Of a stretch of DNA of 64,000 nucleotides, positions 17,667 through 62,379 are shown piece by piece. The stretch's first letter is position 1, and each line of letters begins with the position of its first letter. The stretch spans positions 23,111,001-23,175,000 of the forward strand of contig NC_060211.1 in the NCBI RefSeq assembly GCF_021130785.1. The letters are read 5' to 3'. The position numbers and the translations under genes are program-made. The notes under the pieces are model-generated. The model made no database searches, was not told the origin of the DNA, and saw nothing but the letters and a program-made list of their open reading frames with translations. This stretch comes from Homalodisca vitripennis. Lineage: Eukaryota; Arthropoda; Insecta; Hemiptera; Cicadellidae.

Positions 17667-17738
17667 CTAGAAAAATCGAGAGTGGTCCAGGGCGCTTCTC
17701 TGGTTTCTTCGAATTGCCTGGTTTACTTCATTCCTCGT
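17667..17738 (-). CDS. Exon E30: alternative terminal coding exon with stop
   Basis: 23 codons plus TAG. It begins TRNEVNQAIRRNQRS and ends ALDHSRFF-stop. The acceptor is strong (TTTTTTAATTGCAG). The stop codon is at 17667-17669 and an AATAAA signal lies about 77 nt further down the transcript. With E29 it gives a basic, non-proline C-terminus. E31 to E34 lie downstream, so either this is an alternative end of the gene or those exons belong to longer isoforms. Confidence 0.82.
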   Translation of the reverse strand, partial: TRNEVNQAIRRNQRSALDHSRFF

Positions 17739-18215
17739 CTGCAATTAAAAAATATACACAAAAGGTTAAACACAGCCATAGATTCTAGCGATGGCTATTG
17801 AGGGCAAATTGTTTCTATTAATATTATGCAATTTTACAAAACTAAATTGGGAAAATTTACAGAATAGGCACATTTAAGAAAATATATACAACACTATTCA
17901 TTACTATTATTATTCATCGCAGTATTATTCTGTGAAGCGAAGCATTAATGCTACCCTCATTATTTTTGCTCCACAGTGGACAACTTTTGAAATAATTTCA
18001 ATTGTTGAATTGGGCTGCTACTTTGGATTGACATTGAGTGGTCTAATTGAATATCATTACTCTCGACCGTTCTCATAGTCTAAGACACTTAGTTGACTTT
18101 CATACTTTTACATAAAATTCCCGTATACTGAGAATAGACTTGCCAGAATACTATGACAGCTAACTGTGTACATTAGATGCTTGATTTCTACTTTGAGTCT
18201 TTGTGTATTGAGCAA
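17739..18215. other. Intron E29-E30, proximal part
   Basis: AT-rich with no recognised feature. Confidence 0.5.
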
Positions 18216-18219
18216 TGTT

Positions 18220-18450
18220 ATGAGAATCTCTTCTTCAGGTAAATAAGTAACCTAGTTACTAGGTTTGTAATCTAGTTTGTAGTTATGTATTAGGTTAGTT
18301 ATTTACCTGAAGAAGAGATCAGATTGCAAATCTCGAAACGTAATTTTACTGATTCTTTGTTTCACTGAACGATGGCAAATGCCCGGAAAAATCCTGTTTC
18401 CTTCAAAATCCTTCCATCGTCAAAAACACTTCAAACAAAGGAATAAATAT
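18220..18450. repeat. Dispersed repeat with fold-back arms, copy 1
   Basis: Arms ATCTCTTCTTCAGGTAAATA and its complement enclose about 40 nt (18226-18319), followed by CAGATTGCAAATCTCGAAAC and CACTGAACGATGGCAAATGC. The same series occurs at 62965-63190. Probably the end of a retroelement. Confidence 0.75.
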
Positions 18451-19146
18451 TATTAAATTTTGGATCCCAGCTGAGTCATCTGTTAAGTAAATTAATTATG
18501 TTTCTTGTTCGTACTACAGTGGTGGTGAAATAGTTCGCTTAGTTTAATTGTCAATTTTTGTTATTTTGCAAGATTTTTCAATCAGAAGATAGAGTGTTTG
18601 AATGCCTAAGATGTTAATCTAAATTCAGCTTAATTAGCACACACTCGTAATCTTTATATACAAACCACCTGATAAACTACCGCTCAATACCAAGTGATAT
18701 TAATGATAAGTGTTTACTCACAATCACCACAGATTCTGTGTGTCGTCTTGTAATAAAGGTTTGCTCTAATTCTTTCTGCCACTCCTCCTAATTCGTAATA
18801 TTACACTAGTCAAAACCTATGTTAGTGGTTCGATTCACTCAAGTTCACGGGTTACTTTTCAAGATTAACACTCGATGAGAAATAATGCAAACTTAATAAT
18901 TAGACACTCGTGAAAATTTCAGCACGTTCTGATTTAAAACTTTCTTTAAAAAGAATCAAACAGTTTTATAATTGATTTTTAGTCCATCTTTGGCCGTTGT
19001 ATAAAGTATTTAGATGACACTATGGTAAGTTATTTAATCAAAATTCTAACTAAATTAGTTACTATGATGGAATTTCAACTATTGCTGTCAATAAAAGTTA
19101 TCTAATACAAAATGATTAATCCATTTTTAATGTGATTCAAACTTAC

Positions 19147-19182
19147 CTCTCGAACGACCTGTCTCATTTCTGCAGCCATGCC
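19147..19182 (-). CDS. Exon E29: GMAAEMRQVVRE exon
   Basis: Twelve codons, GMAAEMRQVVRE, between ACTCTTTCAG and GTAAGTTTG. Unlike the others it has no proline and looks helical. It directly precedes the terminal exon E30, and together they would form a charged C-terminal segment. Confidence 0.78.
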
Positions 19183-20142
19183 CTGAAAGAGTGTATTTTT
19201 TACTAACCATTCCTGACTAAATGTTTTATTAGGCATTTAATAATTTATTGCTATTAGGAGTGTTTTCTAGCTGACTTCTCCTTACATTCTACATGTTTGC
19301 AAAACTTTATCTGAACTTATGCGTTTGTATTTTATAATTATCTTTTCTTAATTGGGTGTTACATGATACTAAATTGTATTCTGTTACTTTCTCTATAGTT
19401 TCAGAAATAGATAGAAAATATAAAAATATAAGGTATGCTATGTTAATACCTCTTTAAGATTTCAAATCCAAAAATAATTATTTACAACTAGTGCTTTTTA
19501 ATTTAACTAAGATTTCACTAGTACCTGAATTTTTATATGTAACAATGTCCACTTACAACACATTATTGAAAAAATAGAAAAGCTAGAATGAATAAGACTC
19601 CAAAAAAGTATCATATTTATTTTGTGTAAAACGCAAATTTAACATAATAGATTAAAACGACTTCTCGACTTGTGTTGTAAAAGACAGTGTAAATAAGGTT
19701 TGGTACAATGTAAAAAGAGCGATTATTTGTACATTTCATTATTTCATTCACATTTTTCATTAATAAATAATAGTATGTTGTATATAATACATAAATATTA
19801 GTTTGTAAAAATAAACATGGTTTTGATTACAACTGAAAGACATTTCATTTCTTTATTTCATACGGTACTAATACTAAATATTCATTACCATTTCATACCA
19901 TTAGCTTATAATATTTTAATTATTCTTTATATCTCATTCTTAATTCATATATTTTATAATTTAACATATTCAATGAATTTTGTTGAATATTCATTGAACC
20001 TACGGCTTATAATGATTTTGTTCTCTTAGTAACAACGTATATTAATGGTTTTAAATGCTGTGATTAAACAGCTAAAACTATTACTAGCAAAGGTTATATG
20101 ATAACCTCCCGAATTGTGGTGTGCACTTATTATACTACTTAC
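19183..20142. other. Intron E28-E29, nothing recognised
   Basis: Very AT-rich; the 70-codon plus frame at 19817 is hydrophobic low-complexity sequence without support. Confidence 0.5.
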
Positions 20143-20196
20143 CCCAGGCTGCTGCTGTTGTGCAGGGGCGGCACCATGACGAGGTCTCGATACAGG
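20143..20196 (-). CDS. Exon E28: glutamine-tailed exon
   Basis: Eighteen codons, PVSRPRHGAAPAQQQQPG, between ATGTCCAG and GTAAGTAGTA. Proline/alanine/glutamine-rich; related in style to E10 and E32. Confidence 0.78.
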
Positions 20197-21519: not shown

Positions 21520-21600
21520 CTCATCACAACCTCCAAATGCGATGCTGGACTGCATCATAGCCTGTCTTCCACGGGCTACTTGGCTCGGAGGTGGTTGCTC
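21520..21600 (-). CDS. Exon E27: RGRQ-type module
   Basis: 27 codons beginning EQPPPSQVA, with core RGRQAMMQSSI and ending AFGGCDE. Acceptor AATTTCCAG, donor GTAGGTTCA. Paralogue of E18 (shared RGRQAMMQSSI) and more distantly of E1, E5, E9 and E12. The conserved R-G-R-x-x-M-x-x-S across six exons is the strongest sign that this is real protein. Confidence 0.9.
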
Positions 21601-22981: not shown

Positions 22982-23017
22982 CGGAGGACAAACCGGTGCT
23001 GATACCGTTGCCGCTGG
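22982..23017 (-). CDS. Exon E26: PAATVSAPVCPP exon
   Basis: Twelve codons, PAATVSAPVCPP, between CATTTTCAG and GTAAGTACAT. Same length and ending as E16 and E17, and shares A-A-T-V with E14. It precedes the RGRQ exon E27, as E17 precedes E18. Confidence 0.86.
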
Positions 23018-23260: not shown

Positions 23261-23284
23261 CCTAGGTGGCGATCTGGGTGGAGA
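23261..23284 (-). CDS. Exon E25: 24-nt SPPRSPPR micro-exon
   Basis: Eight codons, SPPRSPPR, between ATACTTTCAG and GTAAGTACAA. A perfect doublet of SPPR. The repeat SPPR is also the core of E13 and close to the tail of E22. Confidence 0.86.
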
Positions 23285-23700: not shown

Positions 23701-23724
23701 CTGTGCTGGTGGACAGACTGGAGG
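23701..23724 (-). CDS. Exon E24: 24-nt PPVCPPAQ micro-exon
   Basis: Eight codons, PPVCPPAQ, between AATTTTCAG and GTAAGTACAA. Together with E25, 416 nt away, it forms two micro-exons with the same donor string GTAAGTACAA, so E24 and E25 may share ancestry. Confidence 0.85.
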
Positions 23725-23780
23725 CTGAAAATTATACACAATCATATTATTAGACATAATTCTAGTATATAAACAAGTTA

Positions 23781-26522: not shown

Positions 26523-26567
26523 TTCTGGTGGACACGGAGAAGGCGGCCTTGCTTGTACAGGAGATGC
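26523..26567 (-). CDS. Exon E23: RPPSPCPPE exon
   Basis: Fifteen codons, ASPVQARPPSPCPPE, between TTTCAG and GTAAGTGTT. Combines the RPPSP and CPP elements seen in E22. Symmetrical phase 0. Confidence 0.85.
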
Positions 26568-27081: not shown

Positions 27082-27225
27082 CCGACGTGGAGATGGCGGA
27101 CGCTGAGGTGATGGTGGGCGTTGAGTTGGTGGACATGGTGGTGCCTGCGCTTGTGGTGATGGCGGTCGTTGAGTTGGTGGACATGGTGGAGCCTGCGCTT
27201 GTGCTTGGGGAAGCTCATCATCAGG
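27082..27225 (-). CDS. Exon E22: longest exon, duplicated QAQAPPCPP unit
   Basis: 48 codons beginning PDDELPQAQ. It holds two copies of the 16-residue unit QAQAPPCPPTQRPPSP, then a partial third (QRPPSP) and RR. Acceptor TGTCCACAG, donor GTGGGTTCT. The unit is 48 nt, so expansion keeps the frame. The junction after CPP (TQRPPSP) is like an SPPR exon, suggesting that CPP and SPPR exons were fused here or that this is the ancestral combined form. Confidence 0.88.
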
Positions 27226-28885: not shown

Positions 28886-28960
28886 TATTGAATAAGTGTT
28901 GAAATCATCACGGATTGGTCTACGGCGTTGAGGTCTGTTTTTCATCTTCTCTTGGTCTTT
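28886..28960 (-). CDS. Exon E21: RDDFN-type exon
   Basis: 25 codons beginning KDQEKMKNRPQRRRPI and ending RDDFNTYSI. Acceptor TTGTTTCAG, donor GTGAGTTGG. Paralogue of E20 with a strongly basic first half. Open only in this phase among neighbouring stops. Confidence 0.85.
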
Positions 28961-30110: not shown

Positions 30111-30188
30111 AAGGGCTTGGAACTGGTTAAAGTCATCACGAGCAGCAGGTTTGCGGCGACCTCCTGTACCGATTGGATCCACTTCACG
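30111..30188 (-). CDS. Exon E20: RDDFN-type exon
   Basis: 26 codons beginning REVDPIGTGGRRKPAA and ending RDDFNQFQAL. Acceptor ATTTTCAG, donor GTAAGCTAA. Shares the R-R-x-P-x-x-R-D-D-F-N core with E21, so these neighbouring exons are duplicates. More complex in sequence than the proline exons; possibly a helical or binding segment. Confidence 0.86.
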
Positions 30189-30529
30189 CTGAAAATCACA
30201 AATACACATAAAATTAACAACATAACTGCTCATATTAGTTCATTCATGACTAACATTACGTAGTAAGAGGTATATTTATAATAAAAGAAAACATTGCTTG
30301 TCAATTCGCAAAATGAACGGCTCCAATCAATTCGTTTATAGTAGTATGAAATTTAAAGATGTTCTCAAAATATTGCTCAAGCATGCCAGGTTATATAACC
30401 CTGTTTTCAACAAAACATATTCTTAAATCAATAATAAAACAGATGAATTTGTTTAATTATCCATTTTAGTTCTGTGTATGAAATATTAATTCAAAAATCT
30501 TAACCCAAAAGTATTGATTTCATCAATTT

Positions 30530-30885: not shown

Positions 30886-30960
30886 CTCGAAAGGATTGGA
30901 GTCAACTTGGCGTCTAGCTTGATCTCTCCGTCGGGCTCCAAGCTGCAAATCTGGACCTAG
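30886..30960 (-). CDS. Exon E19: basic exon ending in SNPFE
   Basis: 25 codons beginning LGPDLQLGARRRDQ and ending ARRQVDSNPFE. Acceptor ACCAAACAG, donor GAG|GTAAGATTG. A second in-frame acceptor (ATTTGCAG) would start the exon at LGARRRDQ (end 30942, 57 nt). Its last 12 nt plus the donor form the repeat unit of the minisatellite that follows at 30530-30885, which offers many alternative donor-like sites. Confidence 0.82.
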
Positions 30961-31445: not shown

Positions 31446-31514
31446 ATCTGGACCACCTCCCAAGGAGATGCTGGACTGCATCATCGCCTGTCTCCCACGG
31501 GACACCTGACTCAC
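31446..31514 (-). CDS. Exon E18: RGRQ-type module
   Basis: 23 codons beginning VSQVS, with core RGRQAMMQSSI and ending SLGGGPD. Acceptor TTGTTATAG, donor GTACGTACT. Closely related to E27. The exon starts GTGAGT, so the junction AG|GTGAGT looks like a recursive (ratchet) splice point: joining to it would rebuild a donor and allow the exon to be skipped in a second step. Confidence 0.88.
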
Positions 31515-34023: not shown

Positions 34024-34059
34024 CGGAGGACAAACCTGTGGTGGCGACCGCGCTGTTTT
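34024..34059 (-). CDS. Exon E17: RSPPQVCPP exon
   Basis: Twelve codons, KTARSPPQVCPP, between TTTTACAG and GTGAGTAGA. Same length and layout as E16 and E26. It directly precedes E18 in transcript order, just as E26 precedes E27, so the CPP + RGRQ pair looks like a two-exon duplicated unit. Confidence 0.86.
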
Positions 34060-35308: not shown

Positions 35309-35344
35309 CGGCGGACATACTGGTGGAGGCGACCGTGAAACTGC
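35309..35344 (-). CDS. Exon E16: SPPPVCPP exon
   Basis: Twelve codons, AVSRSPPPVCPP, between TTTTTCAG and GTAAGCAAT. Tandem paralogue of E17 (KTARSPPQVCPP) 1.25 kb away and related to E26, all 36 nt and all ending in VCPP. Confidence 0.86.
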
Positions 35345-37360: not shown

Positions 37361-37408
37361 TTGTCGTCCTGGTGAGAGCGCCCTTGCTTCTGACACGTTG
37401 GGCGACGG
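37361..37408 (-). CDS. Exon E15: serine/proline exon
   Basis: Sixteen codons, PSPNVSEARALSPGRQ, between TATTCCAG and GTAAGCTTT. It lacks the cysteine motif and is less repetitive than its neighbours. A 226-bp TIR element ends 36 nt downstream of the donor. Confidence 0.8.
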
Positions 37409-38345: not shown

Positions 38346-38375
38346 TTCAGGTGGTGGACAAACCGTTGCTGCTTC
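38346..38375 (-). CDS. Exon E14: EAATVCPPPE micro-exon
   Basis: Ten codons, EAATVCPPPE, between GATTTCAG and GTAAGTATA. Shares A-A-T-V with E26 and V-C-P-P with the whole CPP group. Phase 0 on both sides. Confidence 0.83.
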
Positions 38376-40121: not shown

Positions 40122-40166
40122 CGATCGTGGTGGGGACCGTGGGGGACGTCTGGGCGGCGAAGGCGG
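40122..40166 (-). CDS. Exon E13: SPPR-repeat exon
   Basis: Fifteen codons, PPSPPRRPPRSPPRS, between TTATGTTAG and GTGAGTAAA. It is a low-complexity proline/arginine peptide, much more GC-rich than the surrounding intron. Related to E25 (SPPRSPPR) and to the tail of E22. Confidence 0.85.
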
Positions 40167-44608: not shown

Positions 44609-44686
44609 CTGCATCGATGTTGCCCAGTCCGAACTAGGCTGCATCAAATTTCTGCCCTTGGCCGCTCTTTGGGCTTGCTGCGGGGG
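44609..44686 (-). CDS. Exon E12: diverged RGRN-type module
   Basis: 26 codons beginning PPQQAQRAAK, with core GRNLMQPSSDW and ending ATSMQ. Acceptor TTTTCAG, donor GTACACACA. Clearly homologous to E1, E5 and E9 but with a lysine in place of the PR before GRN and a different tail, so an older duplicate. The donor lies at the edge of a 60-bp minisatellite whose units contain the same GTACA-type string. Confidence 0.88.
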
Positions 44687-45162: not shown

Positions 45163-45165
<3 letters not shown>

Positions 45166-45834: not shown

Positions 45835-45867
45835 TTGAGCATTCGGTGGACAAACTCCTCCAGCCTG
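45835..45867 (-). CDS. Exon E11: VCPP exon with NAGNAG acceptor
   Basis: Eleven codons, QAGGVCPPNAQ, with donor GTAAGTGGA. The acceptor reads CCAGCAG, so splicing at the first AG gives QAGGVCPPNAQ and at the second gives AGGVCPPNAQ (exon end 45864). Both keep the frame. It contains one V-C-P-P unit. Confidence 0.8.
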
Positions 45868-47897: not shown

Positions 47898-47957
47898 CTG
47901 TTGTTGTTGTTGTTGTCGTTGCGGACTGCGGGATCTGTCTCTGCGAGCAGGAGGAGT
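47898..47957 (-). CDS. Exon E10: basic, glutamine-tailed exon
   Basis: Twenty codons, TPPARRDRSRSPQRQQQQQQ, between GAACGCAG and GTGTGTGTAT. It combines an RS-like basic patch with a pure glutamine run (CAA/CAG triplets), so its length may vary between alleles. It resembles the Q-tailed exons E28 and E32. The donor is weaker than the GTAAG consensus. Confidence 0.78.
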
Positions 47958-48599: not shown

Positions 48600-50075
48600 T
48601 CTGTGCGATAACTGAATATCCCTATAGATTTAGAGGTGAAACTACCAAAGAACAGTCCGTCCGTCTGTCTATCCATCTACTCGTCTGTGGCAAAACTCTT
48701 GATAGAACGGTTCTATAAACTTGAAACAAGGTACATGAGTTCCCTTAGTCCAAGGAATATCCCTATTGATTAAGAAGTCAAATACCAAAGAGCAGTCCGT
48801 CCGTCTGTCTATCCATCTACTCGTCTGTAGCGAAAACTCCTGATAGAACGGTTCTATAAACTTGGAACATGGTACATGAGTTCCCTTAGTCCAAGGAATA
48901 TCCCTATTGATTAAGAAGTCAAATACCAAAGAGCAGTCCGTCCGTCTGTCTATCCATCTACTCGTCTATGCGAAATCTTGTGATAGAACGGTTCTATAAA
49001 CTTGAAACATGGTACATCAGTTCCCTTAGTCCAAGGAATATCCCTATTGATTAAGAAGTCAAAATACCAAAGAGCAGTTCGTCCGTCTGTCTATCCATCT
49101 ACTCGTCGTTGCGAAAACTCTTGATAGAACGGTTCTATAAACTTGAAACATGGTACATCAGTTCCCTTAGTCCAAGGAATATCCCTATTGATTAAGAAGT
49201 CAAATACCAAAGAGCAGTCCGTCCGTCTGTCTATCCATCTACTCGTCTGTAAGAAATCTCCTGATAGAACGGTTCTATAAACTTGGAACATGGTACATGA
49301 GTTCCCTTAGTCCAAGGAATATCGCTATTGATTAAGAAGTCAAAATACCAAAGAGCAGTCCGTCCGTCTGTCTATCCATCTACTCGTCGTTGCGAAAACT
49401 CCTGATAGAACGGTTCTATAAACTTGGAACATGGTACATCAGTTCCCTTAGTCCAAGGAATATCGCTATTGATTAAGAAGTCAAAATACCAAAGAGCAGT
49501 CCGTCCGTCTGTCTATCCATCTACTCGTCGTTGCGAAAACTCTTGATAGAACGGTTCTATAAACTTGAAACATGGTACATCAGTTCCTCTTAGTCCAAGG
49601 AATATCGCTATTGATTAAGAAGTCAAAATACCAAAGAGTAGTTCGTCAGTCTGTCTATACATCTACTCGTCTGTGCGAAAACTCTTGATAGAACGGTTCT
49701 ATAAACTTTGAACATGGTACATGAGTTCCTGTAGTACAAGGAATATCGCATTTGATTAAGAAGTCAAAATACCAAAGAGTAGTTCGTCAGTCTGTCTATA
49801 CATCTGCTCGTTTGTGTGAAAACTCTTGATAGAACAGTTCTATAAACTTGGGACATGGTACATCAGTTCCTAATAGTCCAATAAATATCCCTATATATTT
49901 AGAGGTGAAAAGACCAAAGAGCAGTTCGTCAGTCTGTCTATCCATCTACTCGTCGTTGCGGAAACTCCTTATAGAACAGTTCTATGCACTTGGAACATTG
50001 CATATGAGTCAAACATTGATTAAGAAGTCAAAATACCAAAGAGCAGTCCGTCTGTCTATCTGTACGTTCGCCTGT
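48600..50075. repeat. 140-bp tandem array, about 10 copies
   Basis: Unit marked by CCGTCTGTCTATCCATCTAC at 48661, 48801, 48942 and 49083, with GATAGAACGGTTCTATAAAC (an inverted repeat, AGAACGGTTCT) in each. Copies vary by 1-2 bp, so frames shift. Minus-strand frames such as DFLINRDIPWTKGT are repeat artefacts. Copies at the right end are more diverged. Confidence 0.93.
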
Positions 50076-50318
50076 CTGCGCGCTGTCTTTTTCGTTACCT
50101 TCAATTGGATCCTGCATTACCCTTTTGTATCGGTTTAATTAAGGTGAACAGGTATATTTAGTCTATTTATATCCATTATAAGTTTCGCAATACGTACAAC
50201 CAATCCAGTCAAATTTACACATTCCTCCCACCAATATACTTTTCAACATCAATCACTTGCATGTTTCAGTGAACATGCTGAATGATATTTTTACATATAT
50301 ATACTGTATAAATCTCAC

Positions 50319-50396
50319 CGCAGGAGCTCCAAATCCCCACTCAGCGCTGGGCTGCATCAGGTTTCTACCGCGGGGCGCTCTCTCGGCCACAGGTAC
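50319..50396 (-). CDS. Exon E9: RGRN-type module, first tandem copy
   Basis: 26 codons beginning VPVAERAP, with core RGRNLMQPS and ending AEWGFGAPA. Acceptor CTAATCAG, donor GTGAGATTT. It is closely related to E1 and E5 but lacks the leading QQ and has a different tail. A perfect 20-bp hairpin lies 108 nt upstream of its acceptor (50505-50549). Confidence 0.9.
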
Positions 50397-50504
50397 CTGA
50401 TTAGAAATCATAAAATTAAAGATTTCTTAAACCATAACAGTGTCCTTACAATCTAAAATCTGGTAAATGTGTAGCTCTTTAATTACAAGCAAATTACTAA
50501 ATAT

Positions 50505-50549
50505 ATTCCTACTTTTTAATGATACATGCTATCATTAAAAAGTAGGAAT
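50505..50549. repeat. Perfect 20-bp hairpin
   Basis: ATTCCTACTTTTTAATGATA, a 5-nt loop CATGC, then the exact complement. Lies 108 nt upstream of the E9 acceptor in transcript order. It could influence exon inclusion or be a tiny fold-back insertion. Confidence 0.9.
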
Positions 50550-51239
50550 TATACGAATCTTTTATTTATGTTAACTTCTACAAGTTACTATTTACATCAT
50601 ACACCATTTCATAGTTTTTTAACACAAGAACACTATTATAAATACGGGTTACTTTCCCACATTATAAAATAGTGGAACTTGTACTACAAGAAATTTAACT
50701 ACATTCTTTTCAAGAGATCTCTTCGTTTAATATGTGCTGTAGTAATTTGAGACTGACCAGCATTAGGGTATTACAATAATGAGTTTTAACTGTCTTCTTT
50801 CTATTTCTCTTAGCTTCTTGGCTTAAAACCGTTAATGTTAAGACATAATATTTCGGCTGCATTACACTTATTACACTTATGTTTAATTTACTTGCTCTTA
50901 GGTGCATCATGCGCTCTTAGCATCGACTGCTTAACTGTCTAAGAATATCATTGATGTCGTATCTCATTGAAAATACTGGCCTTCTTTATTTTCTCACAAA
51001 GCTTTTTTTAAAAACGCTACTCAATTTCAAATCGGCCTCTATGTGCTAAATATGGGTCAGGTTAATTTGTAATTTTACGTAGATAACATTTTTTTTTTAA
51101 GTTTCCTACTTTTACCAACATTTGGTCCAGTAACAGGAAAATGAACTAATTTTTGTCCATACTTTACTCTAAAGCCCTCTTACATTCTGAATTCCACCTT
51201 TTTACGTCACAGATAAATAAACAGTTATAGAAAAAAAGT

Positions 51240-51480
51240 AAAAAAGTAAAGAATGTCTTAGGCGAAGTTAGGGCTAAGAAGCCCTCTCTAACACTTAACC
51301 TGGGGACCAACGGCTTAAAGGTGACTTCCGAACCACCACCAATGGCCGGGCAGGCGGGCCGCTTGCAAGGACAGGATCGCTCAGCGGTCACCTGTCCAAG
51401 CAGCAGCCACGCTCGGCGTTGCTTGATCTGGTTATCTTGCGATAACCGCCGTACCCACTACACTGCGCCATTGGCAATGA
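51240..51480 (-). mobile_element. SINE with 5S rRNA-like head
   Basis: The minus strand contains AGATCAAGCAACGCCGAGCG, then TGGCTGCTGCTTGGACAGGT and GACCGCTGAG. This follows the 5S rRNA internal promoter order (box A, intermediate element, box C; compare AAGCAGCG, GGTTAGTACTTGGATGGG and GACCGC in insect 5S). It is much more GC-rich than the surroundings. The tail runs to TTCTTTACTTTTTT near 51240. Confidence 0.7.
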
Positions 51481-52012
51481 ATACACTGCTTATGTCAGTG
51501 TTACGTGAAAAGCATATGACCCCGTGTGTACGGTAGATAGCCTTTTGTTTTTTACACAAATTTCAGAAATTATATGTCCTTTTACCTATTAGCCAATTAT
51601 CTTTGACTTCTTTCTATTGTATATTCTATTTTTTGTATTTATTATTGCTTAATATTTTAAATTGTATTACTTATTATTTTGAGCCACAGTCTACGTCTAT
51701 CTTAAGAAATGTACATTTTTTTCTGTGTTTCTATCACGTTAGGGACAACTTCTTAGCACCTTTTGGCTTCCGGGAAAGCGCCCACACTCAGCCTGTGTTG
51801 CTTTTATATTACTTTTTACTTTGTTGGGTGTTTGGTGTTATATAATAGTTAAGGTACAAAATGCATATTGAGTGTATTTTTTTCAATACTTAACTACATA
51901 TCCCAACCCTAATTTGTGCTTTCAAGTACTCCTCTTTCAATCGCATACTACTTTATAAAGAAATATGTTATTTATTTATTGTTAATTTCATCAGTTATTA
52001 TTTTTTACTTAC

Positions 52013-52042
52013 TGCAGGTTTTTTACATTCTGGCGGTGGTTC
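52013..52042 (-). CDS. Exon E8: EPPPECKKPA micro-exon
   Basis: Ten codons, EPPPECKKPA, between GGTTTTCAG and GTAAGTAAA. Paralogue of E4, but the two prolines after the cysteine are two lysines encoded by a six-A run. This is the only member of the CPP group where the motif is broken, so it may be decaying or charge-tuned. Splice sites remain intact. Confidence 0.82.
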
Positions 52043-52954
52043 CTGAAAACCACACAGAAATATAAGTATGAGTGTACAAAAATCAAACTAACAACTAACG
52101 CTTTAATTCCAATTAATGACATACTTATTTTACCTATTTTTTTATATAGTGATATAATAGAACGTTACCGTATTATTATAGGTAAAACATTTCTAATACT
52201 AACATTATGAATCAAAGTAATCGCTTAAAGTGAAAACTATCGCTCCATTTAGTTCTAACTCTGAACTTAAACATAATATTTTCTTAGTTGATTAAGTATT
52301 AGTTAAATTTGTATTTTATTTTAGTATTTTATATAACAGATTAAGAATGTTCTATGGTTTATTCACTATGACTATACTTTGAAACTTATATCTAAAACAT
52401 TTAAAAAAAAAACAGTAAGGCGAATGGTGTTCAACTATTAAGGTGTCTGTCTTTGGGGACAACATATATGGCCATATTTATTCTGAAAACTTTCTTAAAA
52501 ACAAAACCAATAAAACTTGGAACATACGGAGAGAAACATAAAAACACAAAACATTTATTCATCATATTTTTTTATAGAAGTTGAAAGTCATCCCTAGCAA
52601 TTATGGACATATTGTTCTAAAATAATCTTTCTTATATAGCTTAATTTACATTATTTACGGTTTTCACGAGTTTTACAATAAAAATCACAGATTTTATTAA
52701 ACGAAAACAATAAAAAATTTAAACGGTTCAATAGAGTATCTGTATAAAAAGTTATATTTTATATTTTAAACACTTTGCAGTCATGTTCACAGCATTTTTA
52801 TGAGTACAATAAGTTGGCAGTATAATCCAAATCAATAAATATTGCTTTCTATAATTGAAATAATTAAAAATATTTCAATCATTCATTTTATACAAAGATA
52901 ATACTATAATGCCATAAAACATAGTATATTTGTATAATATATTTATGTCATGTA

Positions 52955-53120
52955 CAGGGTGTTTCGTGAGAGGTTGGCACAACTTCAGGATGTGATAGTA
53001 GACACGAAAACAAGCAAAAAGATTATATGAACTTATGTCCTATTTCGCTTCTTTTAGTGTCTGTCTGTCCATATGTGTTTCTTATTTAAAAATAGTATAT
53101 CAGAATCTGTGGGAGCAAAT
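52955..53120. mobile_element. CAGGGTGTTTCG element end, fragment
   Basis: TACAGGGTGTTTCGTGAGAG resembles the tips of the TIR elements at 8246, 37099 and 60308, but no opposite end is visible. Probably a truncated copy. Confidence 0.35.
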
Positions 53121-53371
53121 AACAAGAAACTTGGTAGTTATATTAGGCTAATTAAAGGACAAATTTTTAAACATAAATACGTATTATCACTTTCCATTTC
53201 AAAATAATGGTATTTAAAAGTTTTAAAACTTTTTAAAATGTTATACAAAGGTGTTATAAAATGCTATGATGGCATAAAACTTATTAGTTTGTATAATATA
53301 TATTGGTGTCATATATGGAGTATATATTTGTAATATGTATTTCTTACTAGCTTATTTTATTAACTACTTAC

Positions 53372-53398
53372 AGCTGGTGGACACACAGGTGATTTTTT
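53372..53398 (-). CDS. Exon E7: KKSPVCPPA micro-exon
   Basis: Nine codons, KKSPVCPPA, between TTTCAG and GTAAGTAGTT. Paralogue of E3; the upstream intron is shared (AAATCACAGGATTAATCA on the plus strand). The A-run at its 5' end explains the one-codon length difference between the copies, by slippage next to the acceptor. Confidence 0.85.
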
Positions 53399-53534
53399 CT
53401 GAAAGTAAATAAATCACAGGATTAATCAATGTTACATAAACTATAGAAATAAAAGTTAATACAAATTTTAATTAAAATTTATTAAAAAACAAATACTTTT
53501 AGGGTAACATTTTATTTTTTTAAGTTGTTTGTTT

Positions 53535-53614
53535 TCAGTGAAAACATTTTCAGACCCATATAACTGAAACCCACTTTCATTTCAGTTATGTGGGTCTGAC
53601 GATGTTTTCACTGA
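53535..53614. repeat. 34-bp hairpin with 3 mismatches
   Basis: Left arm TCAGTGAAAACATTTTCAGA plus CCCATATAACTGAA, loop of about 11 nt, right arm complementary except for three positions. Lies upstream of E7 in unit A; I do not see the counterpart in unit B. Confidence 0.88.
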
Positions 53615-54109
53615 TAACGAAAGCCTCACAGAAATAAAATTTAATTATTATTGGATGTTGAGCTGCTTCTTACTGAACCTGAGTTACTTGACTTCGTTGC
53701 CTTTTAATAACAACCAAGGAAAATCTAAACTCACTCACTGAAATTAATTTAGAACTAGTCATCAGAATTCGTTAGTTAATCTAGGAATTCGTAAACGCAG
53801 TTCCTAGGTCTGACCATCGGATGGCACTGCAACTGTTCTTTCAATGAGCTTAAGTGTTTAACATTCTCTGTAATAGTAACGGTCTTATAGTCGATATATC
53901 CCACCAGGAGTCTCTCTGGTCATAAATTGAGTCCATAAGTTCAACATTTCTCATTGAACTTAAAAAGTGACGAATGGAAAAAATATCACAAAATCATTGT
54001 TTTGGACAGCAAGAAAACTAAATATACTTTTTTATTACCTGACAACAAGAAACTGAGAAACATTTCATAGTCTTACAGCAACCTTCGCGCTACTTTAGAT
54101 ATAGCAGGA

Positions 54110-54530
54110 TATTTGGGTGGGATAAGTTAAGAATGGGGGCATCGGCATCACCATGAGAAAGGATAGCGACACATATATTATTTTGGAAGATTGTGAGTTC
54201 CAGCCTTTTCCAGTCAAAGTGGGCAAGGGACAGAACTCCCACACGTGTAGGCTAGCAACAATCTTTAACACGAAGGGGGTTTAAACCAGCCCAAAATACA
54301 GGCTCTAGACCTATCTTGAAACCCTTTATCCCAATATCTCGATATTTGCGGTGTAAAATATACCGCTCCTGGACATCCATGGGTTTCCTCAGGTGTAGGT
54401 TATTCAACGGTACTGCTGTGCCCAGTCTAGGATTCAATAGAAGGAATAAACCAGCTAGAAGTAATCTCTCCTGCACTCTCTGGAGTGCAACTTCCTTAGT
54501 GATCACCCTTTAAGTGCCGAGTTTTAAACG
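54110..54530 (+). repeat. Dispersed repeat family, copy d
   Basis: Contains CACCATGAGAAAGGATA, CCAGCCTTTTCCAGTCAAAG, CTCTAGACCTATC, ATCTCGATATTTGCGGT, CTCCTGGACATCCATGGGTT and GTGCCCAGTCTAGG in the order of copies a and c. Specific to unit A, so inserted after or lost from unit B. Confidence 0.75.
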
Positions 54531-55648
54531 GAGCTGTGATCCGGGTTAATTTGCCACGCAGAGAATTTCTTACATAGCAGCACACGTGTAGCTTGTTTCT
54601 CTTCCAACATGATCAACTTCAGCAACCTCTTCATTTACTAAACTTCTGCAAGAATATCGTGATTCGCCAAGTCAGATCGTGGTTGAGTACACCTCCCGAG
54701 TACCGTCATTCTCAGACAAGTTACACTCTCATATGAAATTGATAAACATCTTTATCATCGTTACAAATAGTTCCTGTCATGAGGACTGATAAACGATTAA
54801 AATTAAAAATAATACAATAGCAACTACAAAAACGCAATTTAAAACAATAACGTTCTGGTTCTATCTTACAGGTAAAACTTAACCAACTGCTTTCGTAATA
54901 GTTCCTCAGTTCACCGTCAGAGTGTAGTAACAAGGAGGAAAGTGGAAGTTAAGGAGTTCTATAGTTTTTCTCAGAGCCCATACGAACTGTGAATTAGCTT
55001 GAAGCTTTCATTCATGCACCATTTGCTCATCAATGGTTTCTAACGTTAGAATCTTTTTTCCAGAGTCGTTTTAATGATATAGATTAATATACTCACCATT
55101 AGTTTATAGAACAATACTAAAACTATGCTCTATACAAAGACTTACTAAAATATATATAGCTGTGGAATTTTATGGCTTATTTAAATTGCTGACTTTTGTC
55201 TGTCAATATATTTGGATGTGATTAGCGATCCCCAAACTTACATCGTGAGGGGTTCACCTGCTCACGACTGGAGACCAGGATATCATTCTCGCTTTCCTAT
55301 CACAAGTTAAAGTTGTTCCGGTTTGATTAGCGAAATCCAGACAACTGGAAACACATTATAAATCCAAAACCCTCAGGTTCGTATTCCACTTACAAAACCA
55401 TTATATAGTATTGCATATAAATGGGAATATAAAGAGTTATTGATTTGATTAAATGACAAGGTGTATGGACAGACGACTAGATTAAAATGTTTGTACTTTA
55501 GAGTAAATATTGTAGATAAATTTGCATTAATGCTGTCCTGGAACCGTGCTATGCAGAGTACTTGCTTTTGGAGTGTTCTACTACTGATGTATCTGTGAAG
55601 TCACTGAAAATACATCGTATTTACTTAAATATTTTATCAATTACTTAC

Positions 55649-55669
55649 AGGTGGTGGACAAGCAGGTTC
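55649..55669 (-). CDS. Exon E6: 21-nt CPPP micro-exon
   Basis: Seven codons, EPACPPP, between TTTTCAG and GTAAGTAATTG. It is the smallest exon found. It is the positional counterpart of E2 in the neighbouring duplicated block and shares its first residue and CPP. The donor context is identical in both copies (GTAAGTAATTGAT). Phase 0 on both sides. Confidence 0.78.
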
Positions 55670-56433
55670 CTGAAAACAGAGAAATATCAACATTAAAAAT
55701 TAATTCGTAATTAAATAGATAAAATTAATTTCTCCATTCCAATATAAATGTATCAAAATTTGAGCACAATATTTTAGACCATTTTTAATTTTAGATTTAC
55801 ACGCATCTCCTCTACCTGCGTGGCTAGCCAGCACGGTCACCCTTACAGAGCACTCACTTGCGCAATTGTCGTGTCGGGTACAATATGGTCATGGCAGTAG
55901 TAGTTGAGGCTTACATTTATGGTGTCATGGCAGTAGTTGTTGAGGCTTACCATTATCCTTGTTGGCTTCAATTACAGTTGAACTAAGTTTCCTGACATGT
56001 CTAGCATACCAAGGGCTCTAAACTTAAATAGAAAATCTTCCTTACTTTGCTATTAACAGAAAGAGACTTTACAATTAATGTTGAAGTGCCATAATAAAAT
56101 TGTTGCTACAGAGGTTGTAATGTTCAGCAGCGGACTATACAAGAGAGGAAAGGGGTTTTAAGAATGGAACTGATACACCATTTATTCGCTTAACAGGTTG
56201 CAGTCGAGTCCATTGCATGCAGCATTATCCAATTGGAAGCATCATTTATCAAATAATTCAAAATGCTGGACTGATAGATTGATTATTGACCCTGCAGCAA
56301 ATCTTCAGCGTATCTACTAGTACTGGTGTTGTCTTACATGCCTGGAAGGACCTTAGTGACAATTTCCATAAGCAGCCGATATGTGAAAACCTAACTTATC
56401 ACAGATTCACTGGAAACTCCTTTAGAACGACCT

Positions 56434-56728
56434 AATTGTATGTGTTTTGTTATCTTGCATAGTCCCAGTTGTATGTGTTTGGTGTCTTGCATAGTCCAGT
56501 TGTATGTGTTTGGTGTCTTGCATAGTCCCAGTTGTATGTGTTTGGTGTCTTGCATAGTCCCAATTGTATGTGTTTGGTGTCTTGCATAGTCCCAATTGTA
56601 TGTGTTTGGTGTCTTGCATAGTCCAGTTGTATGTGTTTGGTGTCTTGCATAGTCCCAATTGTATGTGTTTGGTGTCTTGCATAGTCCCAGTTGTATGTGT
56701 TTGGTGTCTTGCATAGTTCCAATTGTAT
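56434..56728. repeat. 31/32-bp minisatellite, about 9 copies
   Basis: Unit TTGTATGTGTTTGGTGTCTT plus GCATAGTCCCA, with a one-base variant (GTCCAG/GTCCCAG) that changes the frame. Produces three overlapping artefactual minus-strand frames with QDTKHIQLGLCKTPNTYNW. Non-coding. Confidence 0.92.
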
Positions 56729-57124
56729 GAGACAGGACAGACTCTATGAGAAGGAGAATCTGCAGGACGTCTCTTGGGAAGGCCTCGAAATGCGACTTGT
56801 ATTGAAAAGAGTAGATAAAACCATCTACAATAAGAGCTCTTATGTTTAGGTTCATCGACAGTGTAAGAAGTCTACTCAAGACTATCATGTAACTTAATCC
56901 ACAGATTCATTATTGATATCCTTAAGTCCTCCTACTTGTTACACTTTCTCTGGATAATATCACAAACATAATCCTACTAATCCCTAACTCAAGTACGGTC
57001 TATGTGTGTTCCAATTGTGATGTCATTATAATTTATATTATTTATTTAGCACTCAGTACTCCAATAAGTTATAAAATCCCTTTTTACAAACGTATTTCTT
57101 TACTTATACTGTAATCTATCTTAC

Positions 57125-57205
57125 CTCCGCTCCAAACCACCCAGCGCTGGGCTGCATCAGGTTTCTGCCGCGGGGAGCTCTCTCGGCCACAGGTGGCTGC
57201 TGCAC
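57125..57205 (-). CDS. Exon E5: RGRN-type module, second tandem copy
   Basis: 27 codons beginning VQQPPVAERAP, with core RGRNLMQPS and ending AGWFGAE. Acceptor ATTCCAG, donor GTAAGATAG. It differs from E1 at only a few codons near the start, so it is a recent duplicate. An 11-bp inverted repeat lies about 40 nt upstream of its acceptor (57243-57278), in the position matching a longer hairpin near E9. Confidence 0.9.
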
Positions 57206-57242
57206 CTGGAATGTATTACCAATATTTGTAAAATTACTAAGT

Positions 57243-57278
57243 ATTTTATAGATACATGCACTAAAAAATCTATAAAAT
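57243..57278. repeat. 11-bp inverted repeat upstream of E5
   Basis: ATTTTATAGAT, a 14-nt loop, ATCTATAAAAT. The loop start ACATGCA corresponds to the loop region GATACATGC of the hairpin at 50505, so both copies of the intron fold at the same place. Confidence 0.7.
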
Positions 57279-57839
57279 CATGTATAGATAAGAGTACTTC
57301 ATAGATAACTTTAAAAATCACAACCTAGAAAACAATAAAAGCAGTACAGAACAGCATATTTTATTTTTGACTGCAAAGTAAGATTGTAAACTTAAACTTT
57401 ATTGGAAAGTACTAAAATTAATAAATGACCAAAAACAATTGTTCAAAATAAAATTATTATATTTTTGAGAACAACTAATAATTTCACTGCCTTATACAGT
57501 ATATTTTACGTCATTTAAAAGCGTGATTTTTTTATTTATTAATGAGTCTATGTATGTATCTACACAATAGATTTACATATTTACACTTATTTTTCATTTA
57601 TTGTTAGTGTATTTTATATTTTATAAAACAAAATGGTGATGTTTTCTGAAAGATGCCCAGTACCACTTATAATAGCTTTGTGCAATAACTTACCAATAGT
57701 ATTAAAAATTAGACTATTATTTTTATTAGTACTATTTAATACATTTTACGTACTGCAGGTGATGTAAATACTGCTTTTTCAATCGCATAATACTTTATTA
57801 AAAATTTTATTATTTCATCAGTTATTATTTTTTACTTAC

Positions 57840-57869
57840 CGCAGGTGGTGGGCATTCTGGTGGTGGTTC
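57840..57869 (-). CDS. Exon E4: EPPPECPPPA micro-exon
   Basis: Ten codons, EPPPECPPPA, between GGTTTTCAG and GTAAGTAAA. It is the paralogue of E8 (EPPPECKKPA), in matching flanks (TGAAAACCAC on the plus strand in both). The codon pair after the cysteine is CCA CCA here and AAA AAA in E8. Strongly proline-rich and presumably extended in structure. Confidence 0.85.
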
Positions 57870-58587
57870 CTGAAAACCACAAAGAAATATAAATACGATT
57901 GTACAAAAATCAATTTATTAAGTAACGAAGAACCAATTCATGACATACTTATTTTACTTATTTTTCATATATAACGTATCATAGAACATTTACTTACTTA
58001 TTCTATGTCAAAAATACTAAAGTTATAAATGAAAAAAACCGCTTAAAATAAAAACTATAAATAAAAACTCCAGTTACTTCTAACTCTGAACTTAATGATA
58101 ATATTTTCTTAGTTGATTGAATATGAGCTACATATTTTTAATTTATGTAAGAGATTACGATTGTTCTTATGTTTATTCACTATGATTATATTTTGAAAAT
58201 TTTTGTCTAAAAACATTAACCAAAAAAACAGTATCACGTATTGTAGTCTAAAAATTAAGGTCTTAAGGTATATCATATATGGCCATATTTTTTCTGAAAA
58301 CTTTCTAATAAAAAAAAAAACCAATAAAATATCAAATAACATTTTAAACTTACCGAGAGAAAAATATAAATACAAAATATTTTGATTCATCATATTGAAT
58401 ATAGAACTTAGGATAAAGTCGTCCTTAGCATTTAAGGCAAATTCTTCTAAAATAACTTTTTTATATAGCTTAATATTGATTATTTTCTGTTTTCCTAAGT
58501 TTTACCATAAAGTTCACATATTTGATTAAACATAAACAAACATATTAAAGTTTAACAGGTCACTAGAGTATCAGTGTAATTTGTTAC

Positions 58588-58588
<1 letters not shown>

Positions 58589-58649
<61 letters not shown>

Positions 58650-59133
58650 ATGAATGTTTGTGTGTTTGTCCTTTATGGAATTGTAATCTATTTGACCGAT
58701 CATTACGAAAATTTGTATGTATAATATGTATTTTTCCACGAAGAAGGTTCCTATGTTATGTCTATTGATGTAACTCGCCTCCAGGTGGCGTTGCCAAAGA
58801 TAATAGTTTTCAAAGCACCTGTACATTATAAACTGCAATTACGAGACAGTCACGAATATTTAATAGCCAAACACTATTTGAAGGCGCTAAGTTATGATGT
58901 ATATTTTTGTCTTGAAGATAAATTTCTGGTTGAACTTAAAGCGTGAGTGTTAGAATACTTTATAATAAAAACACATGTACGTGTACAATGGCTATAAATA
59001 TATACAGATTTTTTTGATCGTGGCAACAAAGCAAACTCTACATCGGCGTTGGAAATATAATTTACTTGAGCCAGAAGTGCACATACATGGGTAACGCTTA
59101 CGAAAAGCGTGCGAAGCCGCGGGAAACAGCTAG
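58589..59133 (+). mobile_element. Helitron-like element, copy in unit B, with expanded TA end
   Basis: From the (TA)n run at 58589-58647 through AATGAATGTTTGTGTG, CCGATCATTACGAAAATTTG, TAACTCGCCTCCAGGTGGCG to GCGAAGCCGCGGGAAACAGC and TAG before T (59133). Closely related to the copy at 60849-61336. The conserved TATATA start has become a microsatellite. Confidence 0.75.
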
Positions 59134-59405
59134 TTTCTATACAAAAATTGTTATATTGATAACAAAGTAATTTCCATAGCATTTTATGACTAAAGTAAGT
59201 TGGCAGTGAAACCTAAATCAATAGAAATTGATTTTTATTATTTAAATAATTGGAAATATTCTATTTATTCTTGTCATATAAATGTAATACTATAATCCAT
59301 AATTACTAAAAAAATTTTATTTTTTACAGTATATATATTTGTGTCATATATCATTTAGAATATGTAGTTCTATTTTCAATATTATATATTTTATTAAATA
59401 CTTAC

Positions 59406-59435
59406 AGCTGGGGGACACACAGGTGATTTTTTCTT
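59406..59435 (-). CDS. Exon E3: KKKSPVCPPA micro-exon
   Basis: Ten codons, KKKSPVCPPA, with TTTCAG before and GTAAGTATT after. It is the paralogue of E7 (KKSPVCPPA), with one extra lysine codon at the acceptor. The flanking intron AAATCACAGGATTAATCA is shared with the E7 copy, which shows duplication of exon plus intron. It carries the single cysteine in a P-V-C-P-P context. Confidence 0.85.
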
Positions 59436-60002
59436 CTGAAAGAAAATTAAATCACAGGATTAATCATTATTGCATAGCTATAAAAATAAAATATGTTTTG
59501 TTTGAACGACTAAACAATAAACCAAAGATTTTGAAACAACTCACAGTTAATAAGCTCTCTGAAGCCGTCATTAATGCAATATTTGCTCATAAAAGTTTTC
59601 TACCGTCACTAAGCTAGAAGAATTATTTTCCTCGCCCATATACTGCATGTTGCAGTTGATCCGGATTGGTTAACAAAACTCTGACAGCTGGAAACAAATT
59701 ATAAAACCCACTTCCTCGGGTTTCTATTCCATTTAAAAAACCATGATCTTATATCTCTTATCATCAAAAATTACAGATTAGATCGAGTGAATGTGGTTTA
59801 ATGAAGATTTCATGATTGAATGAATTTATATTAATGGACTAATTCGTTTAAAAGTTTTATATATAGATATAAGTAAATAGTATATGTAATTTTTCAGAAA
59901 TCCAGTGTTACGACTTCAAAGAGCACTTGCTTTTAAGTGTTTTATGACTGTTCTATCTGTTATAATAGGTGTTTCTACTTTATTGTATTATCAATTACTT
60001 AC

Positions 60003-60026
60003 TGGTGGACAAACAGTTTCCGCTTC
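60003..60026 (-). CDS. Exon E2: 24-nt VCPP micro-exon
   Basis: Eight codons, EAETVCPP, between CTTTTTTCAG and GTAAGTAATTG. It ends in the recurring V-C-P-P. It sits in the same place in its duplicated block as E6 (EPACPPP) does in the other. The length is a multiple of three with phase 0 on both sides, so inclusion or skipping would not change the downstream frame. Its small size makes it easy to miss, but splice sites and motif agree. Confidence 0.78.
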
Positions 60027-60307
60027 CTGAAAAAAGAAGTATCATCATTAAGAATTACTTCATATTTAAATAAATAAAATTTATTTCTCTATACAAATGT
60101 ATCGAAACCAAAGACTTTTGCTCCTAAAAATTTAACTCCATTTTGATTTAAAAGGGATTGTTATAAGAATTTACATTTTTACATTGTGAACTATATCTAG
60201 AATAGTGTCCACAAATAACGCGTCCACTAATAATGGTCTCAAGACCACATTGTGGGTTGTGTACCAACCGTATACTACAAAAGACCAATAGATGGGCTAT
60301 GCCTATA

Positions 60308-60835
60308 CAGGGTGATTCACAAATATATGCAGACCTCATTCTACATATAAAAATAATTCAAATAAAGTATACATATACATTGATCCAGAAATTCTCCGTT
60401 AGCAAGTTACGTCTAGCGAAAGATTTTGCTCGGATATCAGCTCACCATCTAAAACAAGGTTTTCTTGATATCGTGGCAAGGTAGAGGGAATTCTATTGTT
60501 TCTTATGGATTTAACTAGAAAAATTGAATCAAACAGGCCCCGGAAATGCACGTTTAGTGGTTTCTGAGAAAACCACTGTCAAATTAAAAACATGGAGTGA
60601 AAAACACAATTTTTCGTCTTTGGGAAACAATAATACTGTTATTGCCCCAAGAAACAGATCAGATTTTAAATCAAACTTGTTGAAAACTGTATTTTAAAAA
60701 TATAACTGTCCGAATAAAGTATACAGAGAGCGAATAGATGTTTGATTACATGAATTTTTATTCATATACAAGTGGAACATACGGACTGAACCTTTCGCTA
60801 GCCGTAATTTGCTAAAAAATCATTTCCGGACTCAT
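60308..60835. mobile_element. CAGGGTGATTCAC element, partial TIRs
   Basis: Starts TACAGGGTGATTCACAAATA. Inner inverted pair: CCGTTAGCAAGTTACGTCTA with GCGAAAG (60398) and CTTTCGCTAGCCGTAATTTG (60792). The right tip seems cut by the Helitron-like insertion that starts at 60849. A non-autonomous DNA element. Confidence 0.6.
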
Positions 60836-60848
60836 GTTTATACACATA

Positions 60849-61336
60849 TCTATCTATATAAAAATGAATGTTTGTATGTATGTCCTTTATAGAATTAGAA
60901 ACTATGTGACCGATCATTATCAAAATTTGTATGTATATGTATTTTTCCACGGAGAAGGTTTATATGCTATGCCCATTGGTGTAACTCGCCACCAGGCGGC
61001 GCTGCAAAATATAAAAGTTATCAAAGCACCTGCACATTACAAACTGCAATTACAAGAGAGGTACGTATATTAAATAGCCAAACATTATTTGAAGGCGCTA
61101 AGTTTTTATATTTGTCTGTAAAATAAATTTCTGGTTGAACTTTAAGCTTGAGTGTTAGACCACTTTAATGTACGTGTACAATGGCTATAAACATACACTT
61201 TTGACAGACTTTCTTGACTTCCTTGGCAACAAGGTAAACTCTACATCAGCGTTTGAAATATAATTCACTTGAACCATAAGTGCTCATATACGGACAAAAC
61301 TTACGAAAAGCGTGCGAAGCCGCGGGAAACAGCTAG
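60849..61336 (+). mobile_element. Helitron-like element, 488 bp, TC...CTAG ends
   Basis: Starts TCTATCTATATAAAAATG after A and ends GGGAAACAGCTAG before T, with the GCGAAGCCGCGGG terminal string. Same family as 58589-59133 and related to 23781-25082. No coding capacity; non-autonomous. Confidence 0.8.
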
Positions 61337-62298
61337 TTTTATATAAAACACCTAAACAACTAAAAATTGTTTACATTTACAAAGATTTTTTATAGCATTT
61401 AAGGTTTTAATCCGTATGAACTCGGTAGTAACGTAGCACTCTCTGTAAAGCAGCCACTTCTTAACCCCTTTCCAGTTTTATATTTAACCTGTGCCAATCA
61501 CTCTGCATAGCACTCACTTGCGCCCTTGCCCCGTTCATGACACCTTTGTGGTTGTAGTTGATACTCACCATTAGTCTTGAATGTTACTACTCGCTATATA
61601 CGTGTAGACGAGGCTAAGGATCTGCCTTTAATTTGTTTTAGAGAGATCCAGAGTACCACTCCATGATGCTGAGGTCGTATATGTTCAGCAGCTAATATGC
61701 ATGGAATGCTATGAATGGTACACACATTATCTATCCTATGCTGGATTATCCAATTCGTTGCAGCATCTACCTATTCACTCATTATGCTAGATTGGATATA
61801 ACTACGGACCCTAAAAGTTTTCAGAATAACTATTGGTCTCCTGTTTAACTAGAAAATTCACTAGAAGATTCCTCTAAGAACCCTATAGTAGTTTCCTTCG
61901 GAGTGAGCCTAATCTAAAAAGGTTACTTAAAATTCCTTCAAAATGACCCAGTTGCATACCAAGACTAAACATTGAAATTGTTAAACAACTGTTCAATGAC
62001 ACACAGTTAGTGCTGATACCTTGTGTAGCTCCAGAGGCTCGAGACAAGACATCCTCTGTGAAGAAAAATTTGCTTAGGGTCTCCTGAAATAGCTTCAAGA
62101 GTTTATCTTTACTGACCAGAGGGATAGGAAAAACCAACCAAGAAGATATGTTATGTGATGAATACCCATTGGTCTATATCGTATGTGTTCTTAAACATAT
62201 ATTAGTACGTTGTATTTACTCTACCACTTTACAATCCAATAAGTTATAAAATCCCTTTTAAAAACTGATTACTTCACTTATACCGTAATCTATCTTAC

Positions 62299-62379
62299 CT
62301 CCGCTCCAAACCACCCAGCGCTGGGCTGCATCAGGTTTCTGCCGCGGGGCGCTCTCTCGGCCACAGGTGCCTGCTGCGC
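62299..62379 (-). CDS. Exon E1: RGRN-type module, third tandem copy
   Basis: This 81-nt exon (27 codons) begins AQQAPVAERAP, has the core RGRNLMQPS and ends AGWFGAE. Upstream is AACAG and downstream GTAAGATAG. It is almost identical to E5, and about 100 nt of downstream intron is also alike (shared CCAATAAGTTATAAAATCCC), so the pair arose by recent segmental duplication. It is the most 5' exon seen; the start codon lies beyond the window. Role unknown. The block is more polar and aromatic (W, F) than the CPP exons, so it may be the folded or binding part of the repeat. Confidence 0.88.

Follow-up and report, generated by a model that had tools for sequence, protein, structure and literature searches.

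A modelled 57-exon gene of phase-0 micro-exons in the leafhopper Homalodisca vitripennis and its possible role as a string of short motifs

We analyzed a 64,000-nucleotide stretch (hereafter the window; C5:23111001-23175000, C5 being the contig that carries it) of the 2.30-Gb genome of Homalodisca vitripennis, a xylem-feeding leafhopper (PMC8496328). Its minus strand holds 30 exons between window positions 17667 and 62379. They measure 21-144 nt, each length is divisible by three, and all are modelled in phase 0. These are exons 28-57, the 3' part, of one modelled gene. The reading that we favour, with moderate confidence, is that this 57-exon host gene encodes a probably disordered protein of about 1,080 residues which acts as a multivalent string of motifs and whose exons can change without disturbing the frame. 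A first-pass annotation of the window had described 30 symmetrical exons here; our curated model gives the same number, the same outer limits and the same range of sizes. It was right to take these exons as real but mistook the extent of the gene, of which 27 more exons lie upstream.

Phase, strand and splice junctions

An exon finder combining AG/GT sites with coding likelihood returned 28 phase-0 exons between 19147 and 62379, and the addition of exon 48, revealed by an intronless copy on another chromosome of the same genome (C4), and of the terminal exon gave 30. The modelled gene runs 46.7 kb past the right end of the window, to C5:23221660, with 27 further phase-0 exons. The final model comprises 57 exons over 92,994 bp (C5:23128667-23221660) from ATG to stop, with a coding sequence of 3,255 nt (stop included) for 1,084 amino acids. 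Its acceptors are AG (56/56) and its donors GT (56/56), introns measure 107-6,496 nt, and exons have a median length of 54 nt, 12 of the 57 being of 30 nt or less. In the first modelled exon an in-frame stop precedes the ATG, after which comes MDRRNRPRPRPHMRQEDCPPVQQPPPA, followed directly by gtaagt. The first-pass proposal that the exons belong to one gene, any subset of which stays in frame, holds for the model because all 57 modelled exons are symmetrical, in phase 0 and multiples of three.

The model was partly curated by hand. A dynamic-programming chain in which every phase was allowed and the first and last exons were given stayed in phase 0 except for one linked pair. This pair was swapped by hand for phase-0 alternatives, and the resulting junction is present in a deposited protein record, P0001 (see below). 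Hand curation also removed four members of the 58-exon chain (two 24-nt copies of YLHPDAPP, a minisatellite exon of 273 nt and one exon of 12 nt), took exons 9 and 12 from P0001 and lengthened exon 32. Splice sites are weak in exons 15 and 45, and the 18-nt exon 20 is modelled and possibly not real.

The chain of open phase-0 exons far exceeds chance. The control finder allowed any length and phase, let sites compete one by one and covered the whole window, and so took in a few sites outside the finding. With gene-like weights and a score of at least 12, 30 of the 34 candidates on the minus strand were in phase 0 with a length divisible by three, versus 4/5 on the plus strand. Because these weights had been trained in part on exons picked by eye, generic amino-acid weights are the fair control; with them the counts in the window were 24/28 (minus) and 2/8 (plus). 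Raising the score to at least 16 under the generic weights left 15/17 such candidates on the minus strand and no candidate at all on the plus strand. Across a wider stretch of 224 kb, 70 of 94 minus-strand and 7 of 29 plus-strand candidates fell into this class.

Traces of splicing were found in the C4 copy, an intronless fragment (L009:4872-5098) in which exons 47, 48 and 49 are fused exactly at the predicted borders. It is identical to the joined exons at 219 of 225 aligned positions, with 6 mismatches and two 1-nt gaps, neither of which falls at the 47/48 or the 48/49 join, and it scores 408 against the joined exons versus 228 against the unspliced genomic region. The fragment is truncated at both ends and its frame is broken. 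It is best read as a piece of reverse-transcribed mRNA, and since it joins the exons exactly, splicing at junctions 47/48 and 48/49 is shown.

A second line of support comes from P0001, the NCBI record 'basic proline-rich protein-like' from Homalodisca vitripennis, which is a model of the same gene. Compared with joined exons 8-32 without 20 and 29, P0001 is identical at 454 of 456 residues without a gap, exons 8 and 32 being partial. It spans 22 modelled junctions, most of them outside the window and three wholly within it; a 23rd ten-residue junction match is assigned to the duplicated pair 34/35. Seventeen of the 22 are independent of the record, because four touch the P0001-derived exons 9 and 12 and another depends on the start of exon 32, which was placed manually. 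The agreement amounts to support and not to proof, because P0001 may be a computed model. The record is also incomplete: it lacks exons 1-7 and 34-57 and, overall, 33 of the 57 modelled exons. It changes frame inside exon 32, and its residues 491-723 have no match of at least 7 residues at 85% identity within the 323 kb searched, so that its tail (residues 457-723, misframed and then unmatched in that region) may be chimeric. The first pass had suggested that the gene may be undescribed; this is close to the mark, as the existing NCBI model is partial, misframed and carries no function.

Exons, motifs and duplicated blocks

The protein is rich in P, A, R and Q (21%, 12%, 11% and 10% in a 1,046-residue version) and probably disordered: 72% of the residues of the final 1,084-residue version are of disorder-promoting kinds, and the maximal 19-residue hydropathy mean is 0.48, with no hydrophobic segment. 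The isoelectric point is 8.9 for the whole protein and 10.6 for the window part. A CPP box occurs in 20 exons, and a box resembling [RK]xR[NQ]xMxxSxxW/F in 9 exons under a loose pattern chosen by eye, with 7 strict matches. RDDF is present in two exons, and there are five SPPR and two RSRSP matches.

In the window, where all exons lie on the minus strand, the 5'-most is exon 28 (62299..62379; AQQAPVAERAPRGRNLMQPSAGWFGAE), an A-box exon whose junctions 27/28 and 28/30 are in P0001. Exon 29 (60003..60026; EAETVCPP) is absent from P0001 and is a paralogue of exon 33, while exons 30 (59406..59435; KKKSPVCPPA) and 31 (57840..57869; EPPPECPPPA) are in the record. The A-box exon 32 (57125..57205; VQQPPVAERAPRGRNLMQPSAGWFGAE) contributes its first 11 residues to P0001 before the frame shift. 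The following four exons are paralogues of those just described: 33 (55649..55669; EPACPPP), whose peptide is also in P0001, of 29; 34 (53372..53398; KKSPVCPPA) of 30; 35 (52013..52042; EPPPECKKPA) of 31; and the A-box exon 36 (50319..50396; VPVAERAPRGRNLMQPSAEWGFGAPA) of 32.

Most of the remaining exons were placed by an open frame and splice sites only. These are exons 37 (47898..47957; TPPARRDRSRSPQRQQQQQQ), 38 (45835..45867; QAGGVCPPNAQ), 40 (40122..40166; PPSPPRRPPRSPPRS), 41 (38346..38375; EAATVCPPPE), 42 (37361..37408; PSPNVSEARALSPGRQ), 43 (35309..35344; AVSRSPPPVCPP), 44 (34024..34059; KTARSPPQVCPP), 46 (30886..30960; LGPDLQLGARRRDQARRQVDSNPFE), 50 (26523..26567; ASPVQARPPSPCPPE), 51 (23701..23724; PPVCPPAQ), 52 (23261..23284; SPPRSPPR), 53 (22982..23017; PAATVSAPVCPP), 55 (20143..20196; PVSRPRHGAAPAQQQQPG) and 56 (19147..19182; GMAAEMRQVVRE). 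Three further A-box exons stand among them, namely exon 39 (44609..44686; PPQQAQRAAKGRNLMQPSSDWATSMQ), a member of repeat family D11, exon 45 (31446..31514; VSQVSRGRQAMMQSSISLGGGPD), the one with weak splice sites, and exon 54 (21520..21600; EQPPPSQVARGRQAMMQSSIAFGGCDE), which by eye resembles exon 45. The exons represented in the C4 copy are 47 (30111..30188; REVDPIGTGGRRKPAARDDFNQFQAL; junction 47/48) and 48 (28886..28960; KDQEKMKNRPQRRRPIRDDFNTYSI; both junctions), which carry the RDDF box, and 49 (27082..27225; junction 48/49), of 144 nt with an internal repeat, QAQAPPCPPTQRPPSP. Terminal exon 57 (17667..17738) encodes TRNEVNQAIRRNQRSALDHSRFF and the stop, and a candidate poly(A) signal, AATAAA, lies about 80 nt past it (17585..17590, minus strand). 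Tandem repeats, mostly intronic, were noticed at 36266-36656 (~39 bp), 43748-44532 (~60 bp), 48614-50012 (~141 bp), 56446-56731 (~32 bp) and 30496-30933 (~29 bp, ending in exon 46), besides long AT runs.

The paralogous exons belong to tandemly duplicated multi-exon blocks at 50300..62430 (minus strand), in which exons 36-33 correspond to exons 32-29 and exon 28 is a repeat of exon 32. The blocks consist mostly of collinear pieces of 66-92% identity, introns included; between exons 32-29 and 36-33 the intron-bearing pieces align at 66-81%. When exons were compared with their 100-nt flanks, the exon was the more conserved in four of five pairs (0.96/0.75, 0.93/0.73, 0.96/0.80 and 0.89/0.80). 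These alignments show that the gene grew partly through tandem duplication of intron-bounded exon blocks. Duplication of an intron-bounded exon is frame-preserving only for symmetrical exons, so that a gene which had started in phase 0 would be expected to stay uniform later. Uniform phase by itself does not prove alternative splicing.

Comparison with known kinds of genes

No known family was recognised at first pass, and the searches agree. Pfam gave no family at its cut-off and no Ig or Fn3 domain in exons 1-23 (without 20), in P0001 or in the window part. Two sub-threshold hits were rejected: DUF4380 in the window peptide (E 0.0043; 16.5 bits, cut-off 29.4) and LRV_FeS in P0001 (E 0.2; 12.1, cut-off 27), the latter in the unrelated tail. 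The PDB holds no sequence match to the window peptide, and Rfam no match in the window. Of the homologue searches, one returned nothing at E≤1 among 196 candidates; a second, over 1,563 candidates, and a third, over the 8,000 top-ranking members of a larger set, each found P0001 alone. The lack of a homologue outside the species is weak evidence, because these searches need shared 5-residue words and a similar length. No paper on the gene or its family was found in the open-access literature searched.

Under the favoured reading, the protein would string together short linear motifs, mainly the C-P-P boxes of 20 exons and the M-x-x-S-x-x-W/F box of nine, and for most box-type exons each gain or loss would mean one motif more or less. 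With phase 0 throughout, such changes would leave the frame intact, both in evolution and, at least in some cases, in splicing. The product would then be a disordered multivalent scaffold, with the number of motifs varying through exon duplication and, to some degree, exon skipping. We infer the scaffold role, the function of the motifs and the choice of isoforms.

A stronger role for splicing, in which tissues select exon subsets and so regulate length, charge or cysteine number, seems to us rather unlikely, though not lightly dismissed. All modelled exons are frame-neutral, 12/57 are of 30 nt or less, and P0001 omits exon 29, a micro-exon supported by its paralogue. This omission fits a cassette; it may instead be an annotation choice. 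It is the one credible skip, and it comes from a model rather than from reads, while the C4 copy omits none of its three exons. An upstream TGC is a splicing signal of micro-exons in animals. Here it is not enriched, being present before 5 of 18 exons of up to 36 nt and 13 of 38 longer ones, with a background of 0.27. The first-pass annotation had proposed that exon choice tunes protein length or charge; this is not borne out by P0001, which between exons 8 and 32 omits only 20 and 29 and otherwise joins the exons in order. Wide cassette splicing is unproven, with one plausible skip on record.

Exon arithmetic places the gene in the structural class of micro-exon genes (MEGs), with 57/57 exons in multiples of three and a median of 54 nt in the curated model. 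In schistosome MEGs, short exons whose lengths are divisible by three predominate (PMC7263636). It is this arithmetic only that is shared, MEGs being a helminth family, and no MEG-family sequence match was seen among the proteins scored in our homologue searches, whose sensitivity is limited. The products of schistosome MEGs are secreted, whereas no secretion is predicted for the leafhopper protein.

We consider it improbable that the gene is a salivary effector of the bicycle or megacycle type, secreted into plants. The resemblance is real: bicycle and megacycle genes are likewise hemipteran, long and fast-diverging, with many one-phase micro-exons and internal repeats, the host feeds on sap, and the span of about 100 kb is comparable to that of the megacycle gene with 118 exons in Melanaphis sacchari (PMC9168663). 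The same source describes it as rare, in most genomes, for a gene to have many exons of similar size and a single phase. The phase differs, however, since internal exons of bicycle genes are almost all in phase 2 (PMC9168663) while 55/55 internal exons of the curated leafhopper model are in phase 0. The bicycle classifier, computed from the coefficients printed in that paper, gives a logit of -252.8, and still -3.7 if all internal exons are set to phase 2. No signal sequence was found at the modelled N-terminus, where the best 9-residue Kyte-Doolittle mean is -0.9 (starts in the first 27 residues), although a coding exon with a signal peptide may lie upstream of the model, and a coarse pattern for the CYC motif, C.{2,20}Y.{2,20}C, has a single match in 1,084 residues. 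Moreover, the bicycle and megacycle genes described are from aphids, phylloxerids and scale insects, and no candidates are reported in the three basal outgroups of that study (PMC9168663).

The first pass had noted that titin PEVK exons have a similar symmetry, but that the protein is a titin-like elastic spring of muscle is very improbable. Mammalian titin PEVK likewise consists of dozens of short, proline-rich, repetitive exons that arose by duplication, and annotation tools miss some of them (PMC6469411). The likeness fails on domains and on composition: the leafhopper gene stands alone, without an Ig/Fn3 frame, and its protein contains 33.9% P, E, V and K (45.1% with alanine) versus about 70% in PEVK (PMC6469411). 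Only 11 of the 57 exons reach the 0.54 PEVK cut-off, or 18 when alanine is counted. In Drosophila, exons 31 and 32 encode large parts of the Sallimus spring, and exon 32 alone measures about 4 kb or more (PMC12063666). Finally, chance open frames or a decayed locus, to which the weak splice sites of some exons (15, 45) might point, are scarcely credible given the strand and phase controls and the identity with P0001 over 22 junctions, and the exact joins of the C4 copy already contradict them for exons 47-49.

A probable neighbouring gene and the possible meaning of the locus

Adjoining the main gene downstream on the same strand is a further chain of phase-0 exon candidates; near window position 10097 a second gene, built in the same way, probably begins. 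Its probable first exon (10068..10107, minus strand) has its ATG at 10097 and encodes MNRRDPCPRA, followed by gtaagt. The main gene opens with similar codons in its exon 1. On the minus strand of 343 kb, a degenerate 14-base pattern built on the opening codons of the second gene matches only at the two gene starts. Candidate phase-0 exons follow at 7257..7307, 6254..6286 and 2293..2355 (all minus). In the 30 kb below the start, 13/15 minus-strand candidates are in phase 0 and multiples of three, with one candidate in total on the plus strand; they include 105-nt exons resembling GxxQMRTSxGWAxQLP and 66-72-nt exons resembling CPSYRNEF. The M-x-x-S-x-G-W box of this gene scores 24.0 against the main-gene boxes versus 16.8 (sd 1.6) for shuffled ones, none of 500 being as high, in a comparison whose rows were picked by eye.

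Further phase-0 candidates lie upstream of the main gene, at C5:23242-23312 kb. Together with the second gene downstream, they make a tandem cluster of at least two genes likely. Among the upstream candidates, those at C5:23262-23312 kb carry CPP and FDPC motifs and perhaps represent a third gene of the cluster. Two long, paralogous, CPP-rich exon candidates, each of about 600 nt, were also observed (C5:23242100-23242841 and 23278723-23279331); piece by piece they are 74-80% identical. The frame of one is open over its whole length, that of the other is broken near its end. Farther away, at C5:23332-23384 kb, lie what we take by eye to be a pickpocket-like DEG/ENaC channel gene (minus) and a U2SURP/SR140-like gene (plus), and at window 1558-2127 (minus) an open reading frame fragment, reverse-transcriptase-like by eye and presumably from a long interspersed element (LINE).

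Several observations weigh against the motif-string reading of the main gene and its extension to the neighbour. P0001 may have been computed on the same assembly, and, apart from the exon 33 peptide found in P0001, transcript-like support within exons 33-57 is confined to 47-49. The fifth duplicated pair, 31/35, goes against the other four, its flanks being more conserved (0.86) than the exon (0.77). The box patterns behind the count of nine exons were set by eye, as were the rows compared for the second gene. Exactly one cysteine is found in 24 exons versus a shuffled mean of 16.9 (379 of 20,000 shuffles as high), an excess that is weak because duplication makes exons non-independent. In the second gene, repeated exons beat their flanks at the DNA level in only 7 of 13 pairs, which is no excess.

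Taken as a whole, the locus leads us to put forward, tentatively, a wider proposal: that a tandem cluster of giant micro-exon genes, with phase 0 fixed in every exon, may have evolved in a leafhopper lineage independently of the aphid bicycle genes. Each exon would carry one motif, and the valence of a disordered scaffold would depend on exon copy number together with exon choice. If true, this would be a phase-0 counterpart to the phase-2 bicycle genes and would allow one to ask whether selection for freedom in splicing keeps the phase uniform or exon duplication simply leaves such uniformity behind. The absence of 33 of the 57 modelled exons from the deposited model also marks a gap in annotation. 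A gene of this kind in a leafhopper pest would be a possible test case for how micro-exon genes grow and vary.

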